From Lachnospiraceae bacterium (GTDB lineage: Bacteria > Bacillota > Clostridia > Lachnospirales > Lachnospiraceae): 64,000 nucleotides of DNA. The stretch's first letter is position 1. Each line of letters begins with the position of its first letter. The notes under the pieces were generated by a model, which saw nothing but the letters and a program-made list of their open reading frames with translations, had not been told where the DNA came from and searched no databases. The stretch is from assembly GCA_024403455.1 (NCBI GenBank), contig JAKSRR010000011.1:24489-88488 (forward strand). The letters run 5' to 3'. The position numbers and the translations under genes are program-made. Positions 3,335 through 64,000 of this stretch are shown here, piece by piece.

Positions 3335-4411
3335 CTATTTTGTTTTCTCACGAACCGCATCTTCTATAAGACCAATCACTGCATCGATAGCACTTTTCTC
3401 CTGTGCTTTCCGCATGCTCTTCGTATAGGAATCGCGATTGAAGTACAGCTCATGAAGTTTATCCATGAGTGTACTGCTATCCATATCTTCCTCGTGTAGA
3501 ACCATAGAGAAATTCTGCGCCGCAAAGGAAGCAGCATTTAAAAGTTGGTCTCCTCTGGATACGGATGCCGGTAGCGGGACCAGAAGATTGGGAATGCATA
3601 ATGCCTTTAGTTCACAAATGGCGTTGGCACCAGCACGACTTAATACTACATCAGAAGCAGCAAATAAATCTTTCAACTCTGCCTTTACATATTCGAACTG
3701 TCTGTAGCCAGGCTTACCAATCAGGAGATTATCCATCTTCTCCTTGCCACAGATATGAATTACATTAAAATCTGCCAGTAACTGGGGAAGTGCTGCACGT
3801 ACTACTTCATTGATTGCACCAGCACCTTGGCTTCCTCCAATCACAAGTACCACTGGCTTATTATCTACAAAGTCACAAATCTTGCGGCCATTCTCGCGAT
3901 TCCCCTTTAGTAATTCTTCTCGAATCGGGGATCCCGTCAGGAAGCTCTTTCCCTCTGGAAGATACTTTGCCGTTTCTGGAAAGTTGTAGCAAATCTTATC
4001 TGCCACAGGAATACATAGTTTATTTGCCAGTCCCGGAGTTAAGTCAGACTCATGAATTACACAAGGGATTTTTAATTTATGCGCAGAGCGAACTACCGGC
4101 ACTGCCACATAACCACCCTTTGAGAATACCACGTCCGGCTGCAGGTTCTTCAAAATCTTTTTCGCCTCTGACAAACCTTTTAATACGCGAAATGGATCCG
4201 AAAGATTCTTCGGGTCTAAATATCGTCTGAACTTTCCTGTGGAAATCCCATAATAGGGAATCCCCATTTCAGACACCAGTTTTTTCTCTATTCCTTCATA
4301 GGAACCAATATAATGAACTTCATATCCAAGTTCTTTTAATTTGGGAAGCAGTGCCAAATTGGGAGTTACATGTCCCGCAGTACCACCACCTGTCAGCACA
4401 ATTTTTTTCAT
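3335..4411 (-). CDS. murG: UDP-GlcNAc:undecaprenyl-PP-MurNAc-pentapeptide GlcNAc transferase
   Basis: Last cytoplasmic step of lipid II synthesis: adds GlcNAc to lipid I at the inner face of the membrane. The N-terminal GGGTAGHV loop (about residues 8-15), the GGSQGA loop near 195 and an HESD motif near 120 are all MurG hallmarks, and the length (358 residues) is normal. An ATG two codons upstream (4417) is possible, but the GGA of the SD abuts that codon and is six bases from the ATG at 4411, so I take 4411. It is last in a run with rhomboid, flavodoxin-SCP2, HIT and TSCPD genes. Confidence 0.95.
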   Translation of the reverse strand: MKKIVLTGGGTAGHVTPNLALLPKLKELGYEVHYIGSYEGIEKKLVSEMGIPYYGISTGKFRRYLDPKNLSDPFRVLKGLSEAKKILKNLQPDVVFSKGGYVAVPVVRSAHKLKIPCVIHESDLTPGLANKLCIPVADKICYNFPETAKYLPEGKSFLTGSPIREELLKGNRENGRKICDFVDNKPVVLVIGGSQGAGAINEVVRAALPQLLADFNVIHICGKEKMDNLLIGKPGYRQFEYVKAELKDLFAASDVVLSRAGANAICELKALCIPNLLVPLPASVSRGDQLLNAASFAAQNFSMVLHEEDMDSSTLMDKLHELYFNRDSYTKSMRKAQEKSAIDAVIGLIEDAVREKTK

Positions 4412-53827: not shown

Positions 53828-54574
53828 CTATAGTTCAAAGCAGGGCATGAGCTGTAACTTAAACAAATTCTTAGTGTGCATTTTATCAATTTTTTCCTTT
53901 ACCACAGGATCCTCACAGACACCGGTACGAATGTACTTGTCCAGTGCTGCATAGGTAAAGCCAAGATTATCTTCATCCGTCTTTCCGCAAAGACCATCCG
54001 AAGGAACCTTATCTACTAAAACTTCCGGAAGTCCTAAGAGTCTACCAATTGCCTTCACCTCTGTTACCGTAATCTTTGCTAAGGGGCTAAAGTCCCCTGC
54101 AGCATCACCATATCTAGTAGAATATCCTACCCAGTCTTCGGAGAGATTACAGGTATTGGCCACACGTCCATTCACACTCTGCGAAATAGCATAAAGGGTA
54201 GACATACGGATTCTTGGAGGAAGATTCACCCGGGTCTGGTTCGAAATCTCCAACTTCCCCTGGAACTGATTTAAAACGCCTTCCACCGCATCTTTAATAT
54301 TAATCTCATAGGATTTAATTCCAAGATGACTCACAAGCAGCCTTGCCATATCAATATCCTGCTGCTCACCATTGGGCATAAGTACACCAATGACTCTGTC
54401 TTTTCCAAGTGCCTCTACCAGAAGCGCTGCCACAATACTAGAATCTTTACCGCCAGAGATGCCAAGTACCGCGTTGCATCCGGGGCCATTCTGTTCAAAG
54501 AATTCCTGAATCCATTTTACGACTCTGTCTTTTACATTTTGCACGTCAAAACCCTGCATGTCAAATTCAGCCAT
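53828..54574 (-). CDS. nadE: Ammonia-dependent NAD synthetase
   Basis: 248 residues: a single synthetase domain with the PP-loop SGGKDSS near 33-39; the N-terminal glutaminase domain of long NadE proteins is absent. Amidates nicotinate adenine dinucleotide to NAD. The ATG at 54574 has GGAGG about ten bases upstream and follows the nadV stop by one base; a longer frame would overlap nadV. Confidence 0.93.
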   Translation of the reverse strand: MAEFDMQGFDVQNVKDRVVKWIQEFFEQNGPGCNAVLGISGGKDSSIVAALLVEALGKDRVIGVLMPNGEQQDIDMARLLVSHLGIKSYEINIKDAVEGVLNQFQGKLEISNQTRVNLPPRIRMSTLYAISQSVNGRVANTCNLSEDWVGYSTRYGDAAGDFSPLAKITVTEVKAIGRLLGLPEVLVDKVPSDGLCGKTDEDNLGFTYAALDKYIRTGVCEDPVVKEKIDKMHTKNLFKLQLMPCFEL

Positions 54575-54575
54575 C

Positions 54576-56039
54576 TTATGTTTCCTCCATTCTCTTTCTA
54601 ATATCTGCAAACGTATCCTCTTTCACAAGCTTTCCGTCCATATAAACCGTCTTCAGCAGCGTATCCTCCTCCGGTACCACATCCATAAACTGGTCCTGGC
54701 ATTTTAAAATACCATCTTCCTGATATACTCTGCAGCAGCCCTTGTGAGACTTCTTTAGTTTATTGGTATCGGTCTTAGGATCCTTGTAAATAAACAGTTT
54801 TTTCCCGTCAATAATACCGTAGGTCGCTTTCATTGCAATTCCAAAGGTATCGCGGGTCTGCACCACCATTTTCTCCCCTTCGAAAGTTGCCGTAAAACAG
54901 AAGGCGCCAACACCAAAGACGATACAGTTTGCTGCAAATCCAAGTTTTTCCAGCTGTTCCCAAATGGTATTAATTTTCCACAGAGTACAACCATCTCCAT
55001 AAATAATGCCAATGTGCGGATCTAACACTTTATATCCTTTGCTGTTGATGGTTCCGCCAAAGGTATCCCAAAGTTTCTGCACGGTAGTTACAGAAATATC
55101 TACGATATCACCAGAATCCGGACGAACAAGCATCTTTCCATTGTGCTGCATAATCTCCTTACGACAAGCAGGCAAAATGTTATCAATCATATTCCAATAA
55201 TCATAGGTGTCACTTACCATGGAAAAGCTTGTATTAGGATAAAGCTCTGTTAGCATACGCTTCACAAAGGTAATCTCATCGCCGTCCATAGCATAGTTTG
55301 CACCCATGACAGAGTGTTCTGTGGATACCGCTCCAATACCAATCTTTTGATTGCTGACATCGGCACCATACATGGCATCAATGTAGGCAAGGGCCGGAAT
55401 AGTGGATGTCTTATCAAAGGATAAGAGCCATGCAGCAGAGGTTCTAACAGAGTCCTCTAAACAGGACATACCTCTCATCCCAAAATCGGAGCAGGCCATG
55501 GATGCCTTTCCATCCTCTACCGTCTTGTCATACCAGTAGTTGGCGCAATTTCTATACATCTTACCAACCGTAGCATGTGCACAGGGACGCCACAGCTCCG
55601 CCTGCAAAATACATTCTACCCACTGCACTAACCACGCAAACTCTGGTTTTGTGTTGGTCAGTTCAATGCAAGGAACACCCATATTGACATTTGTGCCTTC
55701 TGGAAGAGCCCTGATTTGTAAAGGCAGATAGCCAAGATCATATAATTTTTCTACCTTGTCTTTATCATAATTTCCGTCACCTAACTGCACATTCATATAC
55801 TTTGTATAGATTGCCAAAAGTTCCTCTTTAGAGATGCTAAAGAAATTCTTATCAAAATAATCTATAAGATATTCTTTAATAAAAGCCTGCAGGCCAAAAA
55901 ACACCATCGTATCCTGCTTTTCAAACATGGACTTTCTGGGAACCCAATAGGAAACCAATTTGGTTAATCCCTTAGGATACATTCTGTCATGAGTCTGCTT
56001 ATAGGTATCAGAAAGTAATAATGCCATTGTATTAATCAT
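54576..56039 (-). CDS. nadV: Nicotinamide phosphoribosyltransferase
   Basis: 487 residues from MINTMALLLSDTYKQTH. Converts nicotinamide and PRPP to NMN. Characteristic stretches include DFGMRGM, HSVMGAN and RPDSGD. The ATG at 56039 is preceded by AAGGTG; a TTG 11 codons upstream is possible but less likely. Its PRPP donor would come from the adjacent Prs gene. Confidence 0.93.
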   Translation of the reverse strand: MINTMALLLSDTYKQTHDRMYPKGLTKLVSYWVPRKSMFEKQDTMVFFGLQAFIKEYLIDYFDKNFFSISKEELLAIYTKYMNVQLGDGNYDKDKVEKLYDLGYLPLQIRALPEGTNVNMGVPCIELTNTKPEFAWLVQWVECILQAELWRPCAHATVGKMYRNCANYWYDKTVEDGKASMACSDFGMRGMSCLEDSVRTSAAWLLSFDKTSTIPALAYIDAMYGADVSNQKIGIGAVSTEHSVMGANYAMDGDEITFVKRMLTELYPNTSFSMVSDTYDYWNMIDNILPACRKEIMQHNGKMLVRPDSGDIVDISVTTVQKLWDTFGGTINSKGYKVLDPHIGIIYGDGCTLWKINTIWEQLEKLGFAANCIVFGVGAFCFTATFEGEKMVVQTRDTFGIAMKATYGIIDGKKLFIYKDPKTDTNKLKKSHKGCCRVYQEDGILKCQDQFMDVVPEEDTLLKTVYMDGKLVKEDTFADIRKRMEET

Positions 56040-56081
56040 AATAAACACCTTGCCTTTCCTGTGATCTGCCAAACGTCTTCT

Positions 56082-56900
56082 CTATACTGGAATAACTTCG
56101 ATGTAGGGTGACTGTCCCCTAAAAATACTGCCTGTAGTATAAAGTTTCTGCACGGTACCATCCTTCAGTGATTTTAGTAAGGTTCCCTTTTCCTCATCTA
56201 ATACACTCATTTCCGCATGGCTGCAGTATGCGTAAACTTCCTTTGCACCAAGCTTTTTTAGCTCCACTGCACCATAATGCATGGTGCCACCATAGGCCAC
56301 AATATCATCAATCATTAGTACGGTCTTGCCGTTTAAATCCAGTCCACATTTTTCCACGGTAAGTCCCAGAATCTTTCCTGTGTCCCAGTCCCTATGCTTG
56401 CTGCCATAGCAACTTCTTCTTTCTGGAAACATCTCGGTATATTTCTTATAAGCACCAGCATCCGGGAAGTAAAGCACCACTTCTTCTCCCGCCTTTTTCT
56501 CAATTTCCTCCATAATGCCGCAAATGATTTTCTTAAGATCAACCGCACTGCAGCGATCAAGTAATGCGGGAGTAACATTACTGTGAGGATCCAAAATCTT
56601 CACCTTGTCAAAGGCAAGCCAGTTGATGGTTTCTGCAAAATATTTCAAGGTAAATACTTCATCTGCATTGTGGGTACGATCCATACGGGCATTGGGCACA
56701 TAATATAACCACAGCGTTAATTTCCCCTGATTCTTATTCCTAAAATGCTTCGTAATATAGATAAGAGAAGCCAGCTCCGCATCATTTTCATAGAGCCATT
56801 TGATATCACTGTCCCCTGCACCCTCCACATCCAAATGGATTCTCTGGGTTCCGTCTGGATACTGCTCTATTAAAACCTTTTGGTCATTGAATAAAATCAT
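56082..56900 (-). CDS. Ribose-phosphate pyrophosphokinase-like protein of the NAD operon
   Basis: 272 residues, shorter than classical Prs (about 315). The PRPP loop reads MIDDIVAYGGT, and KILDPHSNVTP matches the Prs DxHxxx region. Such short Prs paralogues next to nadV are thought to feed PRPP to NadV. About 57 bases downstream of the nicotinamidase gene; SD AGGTGG is six bases before the ATG. Confidence 0.85.
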   Translation of the reverse strand: MILFNDQKVLIEQYPDGTQRIHLDVEGAGDSDIKWLYENDAELASLIYITKHFRNKNQGKLTLWLYYVPNARMDRTHNADEVFTLKYFAETINWLAFDKVKILDPHSNVTPALLDRCSAVDLKKIICGIMEEIEKKAGEEVVLYFPDAGAYKKYTEMFPERRSCYGSKHRDWDTGKILGLTVEKCGLDLNGKTVLMIDDIVAYGGTMHYGAVELKKLGAKEVYAYCSHAEMSVLDEEKGTLLKSLKDGTVQKLYTTGSIFRGQSPYIEVIPV

Positions 56901-56957
56901 GACACCACCTGTTCCTTTCTAGGCGCCCTAGCCAACATAAATACGTTTTGCTTCTTA

Positions 56958-57470
56958 CTAAGCTTCGTTGGTAACCTGAATCTGACACATCTTCATGGTT
57001 GCTAATGCAGCCTGGTGAGTTTCTACAGTTACGCCTGCACAGCAGGATGCATCTACAGTAATATCAATATCCGGATACATTGCACGAATGATGAGGGCAT
57101 TGGAAATGACACATATATCGGTACACAGTCCAATCATTTCAACCTCTTCGAAATCGTATTCCTTCCATCCAAGATAACCAAAAGTAGGTTTATTAAGAAC
57201 GATATCTTTCTCTGGATCAACAGTAAGATTGCGATCAACCTTCCATCCATCGCTGCCTTCGATGCAGTGCTCTACTGGAAGATGTTTTCCTTCATAGGTC
57301 TCCATATAATTTACAGGATGGGTATCTCTAGTAAAGATAATCTGTTTCCCCTGGGCTCTTGCATCTTCGATCTTCTTCTGTACCTTAGATACAATCGCCT
57401 GTGCCTCTTTGGTTCCTAAAGAGCCATTCACAAAATCCTTTTGCATATCTACTACGATTAAAGCTTTCAT
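56958..57470 (-). CDS. Nicotinamidase-like cysteine hydrolase (isochorismatase fold)
   Basis: 170 residues. The catalytic triad is Asp8 (VVDMQ), Lys94 (LNKPTF) and Cys120 (CTDIC); metal ligands are Asp49 and His51 (RDTHP) and probably His68. Together with the HCIEGSDGW stretch this fits nicotinamidase (PncA) more than generic isochorismatase. Nicotinic acid would then need PncB, not encoded here. First gene of the NAD operon, behind a palindrome-controlled promoter and structured leader. Confidence 0.85.
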   Translation of the reverse strand: MKALIVVDMQKDFVNGSLGTKEAQAIVSKVQKKIEDARAQGKQIIFTRDTHPVNYMETYEGKHLPVEHCIEGSDGWKVDRNLTVDPEKDIVLNKPTFGYLGWKEYDFEEVEMIGLCTDICVISNALIIRAMYPDIDITVDASCCAGVTVETHQAALATMKMCQIQVTNEA

Positions 57471-58910: not shown

Positions 58911-59858
58911 TTATTCATACACTCCTGGTTCAACATCCAACGCCATATACCATATATCATCTATTTTAACCGCATAATATACACCTTGTATATATTGTCC
59001 CTCAGCGCCAATGTTATATATGATGCGTCTAACATCGCTTACATCAAGATTATAATCTAACTTATATTGATTAGCTACTTTATATCGCTCATCTTGAGTT
59101 GCGTCTTCCATTAAGGCTATATTGACATCCCATGTGACGCCAAACTCTTTACTTGCCTGTGTATACATCTCATCATATGTTAATTCTATACCTTCAAAAA
59201 CATCACTATGGTATACTGATTTATGTACACAATTTTTGGCAGTTTTATCGGTATAATTATTCCACAATTCTATAAATGCTTCTGCAACTCCAACAGGTGA
59301 TTTGTCTTTTTCCGTTTTTAATGACAATCCTCGGGAATCCATATACCATCCGTTTTTAATTTTGTATGCATAAAACATATCAACGTAATCACACTTTTCA
59401 ACATATCCAAATTCCTCATATTCAACAGTAATATGATATTGAATACTTGCTCTAGCTTGAATATCAACATCAAATTCTATTTCATAGGAATATCCTCCTA
59501 CGTCATATTTCCTTGCATCTTCAATCTTAACATCCGCGATTTCAATTGTAACCTGTTTGTCAGAAACAAAGTCATTATATTTAGTAAATTCTTCTTCGAA
59601 ATTTACTTTTAGCAAGTCTTTCCCTTCAACATCTACATAATCTGGATAATAGAAATCCAGCATAGCATCTGCATCTTGCGCTAAGTACGTGTCCAAATAA
59701 TCTTTAGCAAGTATGTTTGCATCCAAATACTTAGGCTTAGCTTTTTTATTTAGTAAAAGAACTGTACATATGACACCCACAATTATTAATACAACAATTA
59801 AAACTATAATAATTATCTTCTTGTTACTCTTCTTAACATTTCCATTTGCATAATACAC
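58911..59858 (-). CDS. Single-pass membrane protein with extracellular domain, function unknown
   Basis: 315 residues from a GTG start at 59858 with AAGGAGG eight bases upstream. A basic segment (KKSNKK) and one helix (about 16-38) are followed by an extracellular acidic region with two NTF2-like parts (about 45-160 and 190-310: LAKDYLDTYLAQDADAMLDFYY; GVAEAFIELWNN). The family is not recognised. An ATG in another frame next to the SD (59863) gives a broken reading. It is preceded by the double-hairpin element shared with the 61887-63737 gene. Confidence 0.75.
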   Translation of the reverse strand: MYYANGNVKKSNKKIIIIVLIVVLIIVGVICTVLLLNKKAKPKYLDANILAKDYLDTYLAQDADAMLDFYYPDYVDVEGKDLLKVNFEEEFTKYNDFVSDKQVTIEIADVKIEDARKYDVGGYSYEIEFDVDIQARASIQYHITVEYEEFGYVEKCDYVDMFYAYKIKNGWYMDSRGLSLKTEKDKSPVGVAEAFIELWNNYTDKTAKNCVHKSVYHSDVFEGIELTYDEMYTQASKEFGVTWDVNIALMEDATQDERYKVANQYKLDYNLDVSDVRRIIYNIGAEGQYIQGVYYAVKIDDIWYMALDVEPGVYE

Positions 59859-59892: not shown

Positions 59893-59948
59893 AGGTTTAT
59901 AGGCACCGTCAAGGTGGCTATAAACCTTGATATGTGTAGTATATCAAG
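59893..59948 (-). repeat. Double-hairpin element, copy 1
   Basis: Hairpin B pairs AGGTTTATAG (59893-59902) with CTATAAACCT (59918-59927), with an inner CACC/GGTG stem. Hairpin A pairs CTTGATAT (59926-59933) with ATATCAAG (59941-59948). The second copy at 63860-63915 has changed bases on both sides of the B stem that preserve pairing. An extended -10 (TGATATACT) lies within hairpin A on the minus strand. It lies directly before the gene at 58911-59858. Confidence 0.7.
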
Positions 59949-59981
59949 CGTTTCAAGGATTTAATATCAATTTTTATCAAA

Positions 59982-60010
59982 GAAAAAAGGAGCCCCTTTT
60001 TGAGGCTCCT
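59982..60010 (-). terminator. Terminator after the DUF5722 gene
   Basis: AGGAGCC pairs with GGCTCCT and TTTTTTC follows on the minus strand. Confidence 0.85.
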
Positions 60011-60046
60011 ATGCACTGATTTTATATTTCTTCCTACAATTTCACT

Positions 60047-61648
60047 TTATTCTCTAATCACTTCCGTCCAGTCAGTGATACCAATATACTCTTTCGCCCA
60101 CTCCATGTACCCCTCTTCCTTCTCTGTTCCAAGGGCTGCCCAGGCATCCTCTGCTTTGCCAATGAATATAGGATCCACTCCATAACCCGGAAGGTTACAA
60201 TAGATGAGTTCATGCACGTAGGGATTCATTTGATAGGATGCCCATAGAGCGCATAAGGCTGCTGCCTGCACATCACCACCCTGCTCATTGGAAAGCCCCA
60301 TTTCACCAATGATGAAGTATCTTGGCTCACCATCAGGATTTAGGTACTCATCCGTAGTTAAGTAATCCGTGATGACGGACATATTCTGGAAGGAAACCAT
60401 GGCATTACTGTCCACCTGCGCCTTACAATATCCACCACTCTCGCATCCTGACATATCCCAGAATTTACTGTAGGTTAATGGAACAATGTAGGGATGCAAT
60501 GCGACCGCCCAGTCCACATTTCCTTCCGCCTTCATCTGCGTATTAAATAAGTCACAGAAATCTGTTTCATCCATGTACCGATAATATTCTCCATGTCCCA
60601 CCGGACGTTTGCGGTTCCAATCCTGACCAATAGAGAAGTATACTTTAGCTTCTGCATTCTGGGACTTGATGGCATTATAGCAGACCCGAAATGCCTGGGT
60701 ATAATGTCTCACATAGGTAGGCCAGTCAGTAATCGATTCATAATTCCATATTCGTTCATTCACCTCATTTCCAATGATGAATGTCTGTCCACCTGCTGCC
60801 GCAATAGCACTACAATCCTTCGCTAATGCCTCCACCCCCTCTGGCGTATCTGCATTAAGCATATACATATAATGTTCCATAGGATGGAAATCCTCATCTC
60901 TGGCGGCGGGATGTACCGTGGGATTATTCTCATCTAAGGATGCCAATAAACAGATGACAGGAAGGTAAGCCCCCTGGTCCTGACCAGAACCATCTAAATA
61001 TAAATTGTGCATGCATAAGCTCTGCAGACCCTTTTCGATGGGTTCATAAGGACGGGTGTGCTGCGCCAATACTTCTGGATTAATGATGTATTTCGCATCT
61101 GTAACCTGCACAAGCTCTCCCTTTTGCATGACACAGATGCAAAATTTTTCATATAAATGGGTATCCTTTGTTTCAAACCCCAATGGAAACTGAAACCTTT
61201 GTTTCTTTATTAATTCCTCTTCTCCAATTGGACTCATCTCCTTCGTCACAACATACTCATAAGGAGCGAGTGCATAAAGATAGGCAATACCATCATCACT
61301 TTCTGGCAGTTCATCAAAAGTCACTTTATACACGGCTTCATCTCCACGAAGCGCATAAGCTATAGCCTCTGTAACATCTTGATATTTTTCTTCGATTTCA
61401 TTGTTGACTCGTTCTGTGTTTGACATTATCTCCTCTGCTACACTCTCGCAGTATACTGAGGATCCATACGTTATGATTTCTTTGATAGCATCTGTTTTCA
61501 TACTCTGGTACAGCTGAGTATACAATGATTTCCCTGATGCATTTTCTCCAGCATCTCTTTTTATGCATAAAAACATCCCTGCCATAACAGCAAGGATGAT
61601 ACTTACACTAATAAGACGTTTTAAAATGATAAAACCCGAATGTTTCAT
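60047..61648 (-). CDS. DUF5722 family glycoside hydrolase-like protein, exported
   Basis: 533 residues: a signal/anchor helix (about 8-28), then a TIM-barrel region. Candidate acid/base and nucleophile glutamates are in FIIGNEVNE (GNE motif) and FIIGEMGLS, the placement seen in GH-A clan enzymes. DUF5722 proteins are uncharacterised; action on a polysaccharide outside the cell is inferred. No clear SD precedes the ATG; an extended -10 (TGTATAAT) is at 61684-61689. Confidence 0.78.
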   Translation of the reverse strand: MKHSGFIILKRLISVSIILAVMAGMFLCIKRDAGENASGKSLYTQLYQSMKTDAIKEIITYGSSVYCESVAEEIMSNTERVNNEIEEKYQDVTEAIAYALRGDEAVYKVTFDELPESDDGIAYLYALAPYEYVVTKEMSPIGEEELIKKQRFQFPLGFETKDTHLYEKFCICVMQKGELVQVTDAKYIINPEVLAQHTRPYEPIEKGLQSLCMHNLYLDGSGQDQGAYLPVICLLASLDENNPTVHPAARDEDFHPMEHYMYMLNADTPEGVEALAKDCSAIAAAGGQTFIIGNEVNERIWNYESITDWPTYVRHYTQAFRVCYNAIKSQNAEAKVYFSIGQDWNRKRPVGHGEYYRYMDETDFCDLFNTQMKAEGNVDWAVALHPYIVPLTYSKFWDMSGCESGGYCKAQVDSNAMVSFQNMSVITDYLTTDEYLNPDGEPRYFIIGEMGLSNEQGGDVQAAALCALWASYQMNPYVHELIYCNLPGYGVDPIFIGKAEDAWAALGTEKEEGYMEWAKEYIGITDWTEVIRE

Positions 61649-61886
61649 AAAGGATACCGTTTAATCATTTACACAGCAATTTGATTATACAGCATTTTCA
61701 TGAAGAGAAGTAGAGATGCAAACAGACGGACTGCATTCACCATGAAATCATTTGATTACGTCCGTTTCTGCACTTTAATCAGAATTAAAATAGAGTTGTG
61801 TCAACCTATAATGACGAAATTCTAAAAGAATTCTTTGAGATCTGTGCCTAATAATACGTACCATTTGAACGTTTTCTAACAATTGT

Positions 61887-63737
61887 CTATTGTATTTTAA
61901 TAATAACTCTCTCTGCACTCTCACCTAATGGATTATATTCAAGCTCAATGGAATTTGCATCCTTCGGAATGACATACAGTGCACCTAAAATTGCAGAGCG
62001 TCCTGGATCAATATTTGCATTATAATCTTCGTTTCCTCCCGAAAGCAGTTCCGCAGAATATATAATATCATCAATATAACAGCTATAATCTCCAACGCTT
62101 ACGTAATTTGACTCGTTTGACTCGTTAGTAACCTTTATTTTCAAGTATATAGCCTTTTCATTATCTCCCACAGTGGTCCAATACTCATTATACCCTGTAT
62201 AATCTAAATTCACCTCTGTAACCATACCTGTAATAGTCTTATTTCCAAATTCATCCCCTATTCCAATTGTTTTTATATTATCCATGGCAGAGTTTTTTAT
62301 ATAAATTGATTCATCCTCCGCTATCAACACATTTTCAGCCGTTTCTTCATCCTGAATAATTATTATTTGTCTGTCGGCTCGCTCACCAAGAGGATCATAT
62401 TCCAATTCTATACTCTTGGTTTCCATTGGTACAATATATACCGCACCTAAAATTGCTCCGCGACCAGCCTCAATGTACGCATTATAATTGTCATCACTAC
62501 TCCAAAAATCCGCATCCATACTAATATTATCAGCATAGCAATTAAAATCACCAACACTTACATAATTAGAATTGTCAGATATATTAATCATTTTTATTCT
62601 AACCAAAACAGCTTTATATCCTTCATCAACCGTAGTTAACATGTCGTTATAATCTTTATAATCAAGGTCTACATATATTACTTTTCCAACGATTGTGTGA
62701 TTACCAAATTCCTCGCCAATATGTACAGTGCTATTTTTAGTTTCATACGAGTTTGTTTCCAACGATGCCCAATCAACATCCGGAACTTCATTTATATAAT
62801 CCTCGATATCAGAATTTGCTTCCGTTGAATTATTACCAATAATATCGTCTACCGCTTTTTGTACATTTTTTTGAACGTGCCCCATCTCTATGCCAAAATA
62901 TACACAAAGCACTATTCCAAGCACAATTCCTACATAGGATCCCAAATGTCGTTTTGTCTTATCCTTCATTGAAAGATCTACGCATCCCAACACAATACTA
63001 GCCACACCAACTATTGGATATAGTATTAATGGTGATGGCAAAATGAATGTTATCCCGGCTAACAAACATGATATTAAACTTAAAATAGAATCCTTCTTCT
63101 TCCACGTAGTTTTTGTTTCTACTCCCTGCCCACCTGCATTATTTGCCGCAAAGCTTATACTGCTATTCGGTATTATTCCATTGTCTACAGTGGACTGCAC
63201 ATTAGCATTCCCTATCATACTTTCATTATTATAAGGCCACAAAGTTTGATTATTCTCTCCATATGGTGCATTTCCCATAATACAGGAATTAGTCGCTCCA
63301 TTCGCAACTTGATTCATTCCATAATTTGTACCATTCTGTTGGTTGTAATAACAAAAGGAATTGCTTGCTATTCTATTGTTGTTTACACTTCCTCCATTCT
63401 GATCATTAAATTTATTATATGCAATATTGGAAATGCTATTAGAACTTCCATTTTGACCAAATGTGTTTTGATACATGGGTTGTGGTTGTTGATTTATGCC
63501 TTGCATGTTATATGTTTGATACGGCATTCCTAATAATGGATTCTGTGCATTCGCTTGAGTCAAAAAAGGATTCTGCATGTTCGTCTGTGCTATAAAAGGA
63601 TTCTGATTCTGAGCCATAGGATTTTGTGAAATAGGTTGAGATAAATTTTGATTCTGACCTTGCGGTAAAGACTCATATATTGAATTGGTTGTATCGTTAC
63701 TGGATAAAATATTACCATTATCTAATGTTGGTTCCAT
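61887..63737 (-). CDS. Low-complexity membrane protein with duplicated DUF4352-like domains
   Basis: 616 residues. Residues 1-200 are a disordered Asn/Gln-rich tract (NPFIAQTNMQNPFL, repeated NPF/NPL), then two to three helices (about 215-285), then two copies of an immunoglobulin-like DUF4352-type domain (about 325-460 and 480-616). The copies match closely, for example SNYVSVGDFNCYAD against SNYVSVGDYSCYID and AILGAVYIVP against AILGALYVIP. The start has AGGAGGTG ten bases upstream. Function unknown; an envelope sensor or adhesin-like role is possible. Confidence 0.78.
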   Translation of the reverse strand: MEPTLDNGNILSSNDTTNSIYESLPQGQNQNLSQPISQNPMAQNQNPFIAQTNMQNPFLTQANAQNPLLGMPYQTYNMQGINQQPQPMYQNTFGQNGSSNSISNIAYNKFNDQNGGSVNNNRIASNSFCYYNQQNGTNYGMNQVANGATNSCIMGNAPYGENNQTLWPYNNESMIGNANVQSTVDNGIIPNSSISFAANNAGGQGVETKTTWKKKDSILSLISCLLAGITFILPSPLILYPIVGVASIVLGCVDLSMKDKTKRHLGSYVGIVLGIVLCVYFGIEMGHVQKNVQKAVDDIIGNNSTEANSDIEDYINEVPDVDWASLETNSYETKNSTVHIGEEFGNHTIVGKVIYVDLDYKDYNDMLTTVDEGYKAVLVRIKMINISDNSNYVSVGDFNCYADNISMDADFWSSDDNYNAYIEAGRGAILGAVYIVPMETKSIELEYDPLGERADRQIIIIQDEETAENVLIAEDESIYIKNSAMDNIKTIGIGDEFGNKTITGMVTEVNLDYTGYNEYWTTVGDNEKAIYLKIKVTNESNESNYVSVGDYSCYIDDIIYSAELLSGGNEDYNANIDPGRSAILGALYVIPKDANSIELEYNPLGESAERVIIKIQ

Positions 63738-63859
63738 ATTTTATTTACACCTCCTAAGTTGATATTTATTAAAGGTAGAATTATCTCTTTCGTATTTGAC
63801 ATCGCCATATCTCTGCTATCGACTTTGTCTCTTCTTTCATTTATTAACAAAAGCAAAAG

Positions 63860-63915
63860 AGGTATAGAGGCACCGTCAAGGTGGCTCTATACCTTGATAT
63901 ATGTAGTATATCAAG
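63860..63915 (-). repeat. Double-hairpin element, copy 2
   Basis: Hairpin B pairs AGGTATAGAG (63860-63869) with CTCTATACCT (63885-63894) around the same inner CACC/GGTG stem as copy 1. Hairpin A pairs CTTGATAT (63893-63900) with ATATCAAG (63908-63915). Lies about 120 bases before the start of the 61887-63737 gene. Confidence 0.7.
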
Positions 63916-63950
63916 CGCCTCAGCTGTACTTTGACTTTTTCTTCTGCATA

Positions 63951-64000
63951 AAAACCTGCTAAGAAAAATCAAGTACTAAATTGATTTTCTTGCAGGTTTT
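63951..64000 (-). terminator. Long hairpin at the window edge, probable terminator of the next gene
   Basis: AAAACCTGC...AAGAAAAATCAA pairs with TTGATTTTCTT-GCAGGTTTT with one bulge. TTTTT follows on the minus strand. It would end a gene outside the window. Confidence 0.65.

Follow-up and report, generated by a model that had tools for sequence, protein, structure and literature searches.

A covarying double-hairpin element before exported-protein genes of Lachnospiraceae and in phages

The element and its two copies in the window

A stretch of 64,000 nucleotides (nt) from a Lachnospiraceae bacterium (GenBank assembly GCA_024403455.1, contig JAKSRR010000011.1, positions 24,489 to 88,488; hereafter the window) had been reported in a first-pass annotation to carry two copies of a double-hairpin element. 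Both copies are present, on the minus strand, and the motif recurs well beyond the window. It is a real, covarying cis element of wide and scattered occurrence, and the libraries searched describe no family for it. It comprises about 53 bases that can fold into two adjacent hairpins, A and B, with arms that are almost free to vary and loops that are fixed. The window copies are read on the minus strand because the genes they precede lie there:

59893..59948, minus strand: copy 1, with both hairpins; R2 model match at 59894-59947, 44.3 bits
59927..59948, minus strand: hairpin A of copy 1; TG at 59946-59945, TATACT at 59943-59938, predicted start A at 59931
59893..59927, minus strand: hairpin B of copy 1; loop TTGAC at 59912-59908
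58911..59858, minus strand: gene for a 315-residue protein behind copy 1; GTG start after GGAGG, N-terminal membrane segment
63860..63915, minus strand: copy 2, with both hairpins; R2 model match at 63861-63914, 43.4 bits
63894..63915, minus strand: hairpin A of copy 2; TATACT at 63910-63905, predicted start A at 63898
63860..63894, minus strand: hairpin B of copy 2; loop TTGAC at 63879-63875
61887..63737, minus strand: gene for a 616-residue membrane protein with DUF4352 (Pfam), behind copy 2

Between the two copies, two pairs in the outer stem of hairpin B are replaced, each with both partners changed (T-A to A-T and T-A to G-C), and ten pairs are kept, the covariation to which the annotation had drawn attention. 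Further in, CACC/GGTG adds four pairs enclosing the TTGAC loop. The 16-base core occurs exactly twice in the window; at up to three mismatches it gave a mean of 0.28 matches over 100 shuffles of the window, and two matches were reached in 4 of the 100. The core alone is therefore weak evidence. The z values of the 71-nt folds of the two copies were -4.52 and -6.08 in the gene sense and -5.42 and -6.33 on the other strand.

As had been noted, a membrane-protein gene follows each copy; both proteins have a hydrophobic membrane segment. The 315-residue protein had no match in a Pfam search, and its gene was found in none of the 34 other genomes of the genus that were searched. A DUF4352 gene also occurs in Dulem virus 35 (locus L422), where it adjoins a phage repressor gene, suggesting that genes of this kind may arrive as phage cargo.

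Family, covariation, and placement

Used as a blastn query, copy 1 brought up further copies from its own genome and only weak matches from the 34 other genomes of the genus; a pattern for hairpin A matched in 3 of 299 genomes of the family. A scan of genome contigs gave 38 loci, and a covariance model was built from 32 copies. Left out of these loci were L071, L073, L087, and L095, which have no hairpin B, and L062 and L064, which are truncated where their records stop. Further copies came from whole-genome searches and six scans of viral contigs, for one of these from among the matches listed; in another viral scan, 6 of 8 loci were chance matches. A two-hairpin detector run over 396 loci (2.74 Mb) recovered 97 distinct copies, with none in the reversed-sequence control. 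Clustering reduced these to 81 non-redundant copies, 47 in genome loci and 34 in IMG/VR loci; the former are called non-phage below, prophage-type places among them. Because the first patterns fixed parts of hairpin A, the sample is biased to TGATATACTAC, and because stricter filters were applied in the many-genome searches, the counts from these are lower bounds.

The annotation had known of no named family, and at the gathering score Rfam gave no match in the window and none over the element in 16 further loci. The two matches found in those loci both lie elsewhere in L053, a phage contig with two copies of the element (FuFi-1 and DUF3800-VII, at 3662-3829 on the minus strand and 812-892 on the plus strand, respectively, without overlap), and sub-threshold matches looked like chance. 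Our literature search found no work naming the element. A search for close relatives in phage and plasmid records retrieved only L422, itself without a model match.

Two groups of similar loci were set apart. In Streptococcus (L064, L077, L083, L091, and L096), TTGAC lies in a stem; these loci and L151-L153 carry a related-looking, distinct repeat made up of TTGATATACTACGTATATCAA, then a hairpin whose stem AAGGTTTGAC is constant and whose loop varies, then ATAACTAACAGTC; several genomes have two model matches. In Dorea and related bacteria (L063, L069, L090, and L092), the A pattern recurs in four genomes at the same place, before a gene resembling that for the ribosome hibernation factor (hpf), with a weak, imperfect hairpin B.

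Hairpin A has a left arm of the form N-TG-N-TA-NN-C, a TAC triloop, and a complementary right arm. The TAC triloop is found in 81 of 81 non-redundant copies, the detector itself having demanded TAC-like triplets; the left arm has TA in all 81, C before the loop in 79, and TG in 72. The variable positions covary, and each of the four Watson-Crick types occurs at the outermost pair. Immediately after A comes hairpin B, which has the loop TTGACA in 65 copies and TTTACA or TTTACAA in 8; another 5 read as a five-base TTGAC loop, and 3 have other loops. A mismatch interrupts the eight loop-proximal pairs in 24 of the 81 copies, and uninterrupted stems range from 0 to 16 pairs despite the fixed spacing of the loops, which lie 25 nt apart in 66 of the 97 copies, 26 in 25, 24 in 5, and 27 in 1. 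No T-run is conserved behind hairpin B; many copies continue A-rich.

In the 56 copies that align without gaps, covariation was 0.778, compared with 0.150 +/- 0.012 after shuffling; none of 500 shuffles reached the observed value. Paired cells made up 89.0%, as opposed to 54.1% in shuffled alignments and 26-39% when the partner was slid by one to three columns. For hairpin B, the fairer test is the first set of 32 copies, found with the A pattern and the TTGAC loop only, since the detector requires pairing and thus partly selects for structure; there, covariation was 0.702 versus 0.156 +/- 0.018. Orthologous copies (L074/L093 and L059/L079) keep their place with compensatory changes. The covariance model and genome searches that the annotation had proposed yielded further copies with conserved pairing and a non-random placement before genes, and so none of the outcomes that it had named as refuting came about.

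At least 9 of the 397 family genomes carry the element, as do at least 7 of 391 in the class and 6 of 35 in the genus. Genomes can hold many copies (ten in G000, ten in G342, and seven in G335). Among virus records, 32 of 33 had a match, all 32 having been preselected for one (31 and L312), the exception being L422; 29 of the 32 had a single match.

A gene start follows hairpin B in 41 of the 47 non-phage copies, and 28 of these 41 genes encode exported or membrane proteins (10 with a lipobox, 16 with an N-terminal signal or membrane segment, and 2 with another membrane segment); by the same crude hydropathy rule, 88 of 230 open reading frames (ORFs) of at least 100 residues in the same loci pass. 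Several of the remaining 13 appear by eye to be phage-type regulators (L080, L129, L134, L135, L162, and L168). The genome of the window has ten model matches, one with a degenerate hairpin B. Five lie before lipoproteins, as judged by eye (C4 twice, C17, C33, and C3:21842), three before membrane proteins (both window genes and one zinc-ribbon protein), and one before a 59-residue zinc-ribbon ORF; the degenerate one has no close gene. Copies with a TTTACA loop precede two lipoprotein genes in another family of the class.

In the IMG/VR loci, 32 of 34 downstream proteins were classed as cytosolic. A small ORF (47-77 residues) on the same strand ends 30-61 nt before the B loop in 23 of the 34 virus copies; all five that were scanned match regulator families and are cro-like, one of them below the Pfam cutoff. 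Many virus copies have a divergent repressor-like gene upstream, as judged by eye. The description "two unrelated envelope genes" is too narrow for the family, whose phage copies precede early regulator genes.

The probable promoter and the possible work of the hairpins

That hairpin A holds an extended -10 sequence was a further claim of the annotation, and it stands: TGATATACT lies in the left arm in the gene sense, and the extended -10 is conserved across the 81 copies. The arm reads as the sigma-A extended -10 motif TG-N-TANNNT, with T-7 belonging to the triloop. At the predicted positions, TG is present in 72 copies, TA at -12/-11 in 81, and TA at -1/+1 in 80; over all 97 copies, the hexamer is TATACT in 50 and TATCCT in 13, and TG is present in 85. 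A -35 is mostly missing: at spacers of 16-18, among single copies, five or more of the six bases of TTGACA occur in L040 only. The tandem copies (L081, L127, L128, L129, L212, and L261) are exact 53- to 55-bp units whose junction makes a consensus promoter, the first B loop, TTGACA (TTGACG once), lying 17 bp (18 in L128) before the second -10. The motif suggests use by the cell's own RNA polymerase.

Many host copies have an intrinsic terminator close upstream of hairpin A. In the window, the features concerned are the following:

59983..60010, minus strand: intrinsic terminator of the gene upstream of copy 1, -15.7 kcal/mol
63950..64000, minus strand: long inverted repeat upstream of copy 2, read from the sequence, with a T-run in the sense direction

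The T-run of the first begins 40 nt before hairpin A; the second is probably a terminator, and the contig ends within it, about 40 nt upstream of copy 2. A sense terminator lies 18-63 nt upstream of A in 16 of the 47 non-phage copies, compared with 16 of 405 control positions, which were random rather than matched intergenic ones; 14 of the 16 lie within 45 nt of A. Elsewhere in the window (53828-57470, minus strand), genes for NAD synthase, a nicotinamide phosphoribosyltransferase-like protein, and phosphoribosyltransferase- and isochorismatase-domain proteins are clustered (Pfam), likely forming an NAD (nicotinamide adenine dinucleotide) salvage operon.

In phages, a separate palindrome of the repressor-operator type sits just upstream of hairpin A. 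Of the 34 virus copies, 28 have a palindrome whose end lies 0-8 nt from A on the upstream side, versus 71 of 680 control windows; for non-phage copies, the numbers are 12 of 47 versus 107 of 940. In 18 of the 21 phages that could be tested, half-sites of the phage palindrome are found again 180-450 bp upstream, versus 144 of 420 swapped pairs. If A is a promoter, such a repressor site next to it would be expected. Hairpin A itself, proposed earlier as a possible operator, does not behave as an ordinary one, because its arms vary within one genome (for example, L075, L127, L134, and L136) and yet pair; an ordinary operator has the same half-site in all copies of one genome, and here the arms covary instead. 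From these sequences, the promoter part of the element is well supported.

For the hairpins, our tentative preference, which we would put somewhat short of an even chance, is a structured promoter-start module of about 53 bp whose pairing acts in DNA. Hairpin A would combine a palindrome with an extended -10 promoter of sigma-A type, TGNTANNCT, in most copies lacking a -35. Transcription would start in its right arm (T-1 A+1), giving an mRNA that begins ANCAN and continues into hairpin B, which would span about +5 to +38; an A-rich stretch, a ribosome site, and the gene come next. In phages, this would be a repressor-controlled promoter behind a cro-like gene; in hosts, a promoter before genes for exported proteins, lipoproteins among them. 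For A, and probably also for B, the pairing would act in DNA, the template strand folding at the start region, for example driven by negative supercoiling, and so gating or shaping initiation; the TAC and TTGACA loops, a fixed distance apart, would be the points of contact. Rather unlikely, in our estimate, is the bolder claim of a cell-polymerase promoter gated by template-strand DNA hairpins with fixed loops, common to phages and exported-protein genes, that senses topology or single-strandedness and not only protein.

Part of the argument for DNA comes from mismatches. The inner nine pairs of hairpin B (81 copies) contain 17 A.C or C.A, 7 C.C, 2 G.U, and no G.G, whereas 299 terminator-like hairpins of the same loci contain 81, 14, 99, and 19, respectively. 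The ratio of A.C, C.A, and C.C to G.U is thus 24 to 2 in B and 95 to 99 in the terminator-like hairpins (Fisher P of 1.8e-4 and 0.009 for mismatch types, in tests that count related copies as independent and involve few mismatches). On the opposite strand, these mismatches become G.T and G.G, which are better tolerated in both DNA and RNA. Since the left arm of A would not be transcribed from the predicted start, and since B tolerates A.C and C.C and hardly any G.U, the pairing would work in DNA, probably on the template strand. The template strand also folds better in 76 of 81 copies with DNA energies and in 72 of 81 with RNA energies, a difference to which the constant loops contribute. The family, its covariation, the loop spacing, the placement before genes, the operator beside A, and this mismatch bias are all features of the sequences themselves.

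Several points weigh against this reading, among them the two limits given above, on the terminator controls and on the Fisher tests. The start site, promoter activity, pairing in DNA over RNA, the part of supercoiling, and any effect on expression are predictions. The mismatch bias in hairpin A is unusable, as search patterns and the promoter constraint fix parts of it, and an RNA helix that excluded G.U for another reason would give the same mismatch counts as B. Early phage transcripts from the repressor-controlled promoter probably run through both hairpins, leaving room for a role in RNA. Finally, three phages (L186, L188, and L219) have TTGACA-16-TATAAT 28-30 nt upstream of A, so that A and B would both be transcribed from this strong promoter, and two of the three lack TG.

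These three phages lead to the closest rival, which we consider unlikely: that A and B, or B alone, act like put or nut sites in nascent RNA, binding their own RNA polymerase and reducing pausing and termination in early phage and accessory operons. The element has two neighboring hairpins of about 55 nt, and in the three phages it lies directly behind a strong promoter, as putL does. The position of the 23 virus copies behind a small ORF is also that of lambda nutR. It resembles that of HK022 putR, and a -10-like sequence is also found inside putL (PMC9378689). However, the 3 kb behind the virus copies hold 20 sense and 65 antisense terminators, with no sense terminator in 18 of 34, and terminators directly downstream are not enriched (8 of 47 host and 2 of 34 virus copies versus 37 of 405 random positions). 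G.U is almost missing from B. Moreover, the predicted start places the left arm of A outside the transcript, and in many host copies this arm would go untranscribed, since a terminator lies just upstream and no other promoter is visible by eye. For the same reason, a single RNA switch made of both hairpins, which the annotation had offered as an alternative, is not favored for many host copies.

It is improbable that B is simply a hairpin at the 5' end of the mRNA, stabilizing the transcript or bound by a protein through its TTGACA loop, with the palindrome of A incidental to the promoter. The annotation had suggested B as the possible mRNA 5' end, and the predicted start agrees with this: B would begin near +5 and be followed by an A-rich stretch and a ribosome site, and a free stem with a fixed loop suits such a role. 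However, the covariation of A is then unexplained, as is the depletion of G.U in B, and it is the loop rather than the base of the stem that keeps its distance, so that 9-bp stems leave a longer free 5' end.

An antisense RNA with both hairpins as the selected molecule would account for the mismatch types and fold energies, which favor the antisense strand, but inspection by eye showed no conserved promoter on the antisense strand in the 16-200 nt that separate B from the gene, and we regard this RNA as very improbable. About as improbable is a mobile repeat, similar to repetitive extragenic palindromic (REP) sequences or miniature inverted-repeat transposable elements (MITEs), landing near genes: the patchy spread among genomes, the tandem copies, and the lack of the gene behind copy 1 in the 34 other genomes of the genus speak for it, but most copies of one genome differ in stem sequence, orthologous copies stay in place with compensatory changes, orientation is consistently towards the gene, and most positive virus records hold one match only.

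Other candidates were set aside: a terminator or attenuator for want of a conserved T-run; TTGACA of B as the -35 of a downstream promoter, with a -10-like site at spacer 17 in 1 of 75 single copies, which fits the tandems only; a pseudoknot between the 5' end and loop B, whose complementarity is lost by eye in L049 and L050; a helix formed by the 5' end with the sequence that follows B, for which the signal is too weak (longest run of 3.49 versus 3.34 in permutations, P of 0.026); and the rolling-circle nick motif TACTACG, in which the G varies here.

If the DNA-structured promoter is correct, gut Firmicutes have in common with their phages a compact cis module in which structure, not sequence, is kept at the transcription start. 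It would offer an easily mutated system for effects of DNA or nascent-RNA structure on initiation, mark phage early control sites outside the lambda model, and help to annotate early operons and accessory surface genes in genomes poor in experimental data.

Comparison with known systems

Intrinsic terminators and attenuators share with the element a stable leader hairpin of free stem sequence, but the element has no conserved T-run behind B, keeps its TTGACA loop fixed, and is depleted in G.U. The antiterminators canT of Tn916 and conAn of pLS20 also affect transcription in cis and belong to Gram-positive mobile elements (PMC11658703, PMC8955417); canT spans 452 nt and conAn requires a protein, and the excerpted texts describe a double hairpin like this one for neither.

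HK022 put sites are two neighboring stem-loops near early promoters, putR lying about 270 nt after the PR start (PMC9378689), and the phage copies of the element are likewise two adjacent stem-loops near an early promoter. Unlike the element, put is about 70 nt long (53 for the element, whose arms are free to vary) and works as transcribed RNA, whereas A appears to be a promoter; few sense terminators lie behind the element, which also precedes host genes. Antiterminators of the put type suppress termination by touching the beta' zinc-binding domain of the polymerase. Transcription of both stem-loops, as in put, fits L186, L188, and L219 and is unlikely for host copies with a terminator upstream.

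The early promoters of phage N4 have an inverted repeat at the start, with stem bases that are partly conserved and partly free as long as the hairpin forms, and their active form is a template-strand hairpin driven by supercoiling (PMC4496689). The element resembles them in its covarying inverted repeat with a three-base loop at the predicted start. It differs in its sigma-A extended -10 within the hairpin, its second hairpin, and its occurrence in bacterial genomes, whereas N4 uses a virion polymerase and a hairpin centered at -11. The N4 promoters show that a template-strand hairpin at a start site can be functional.

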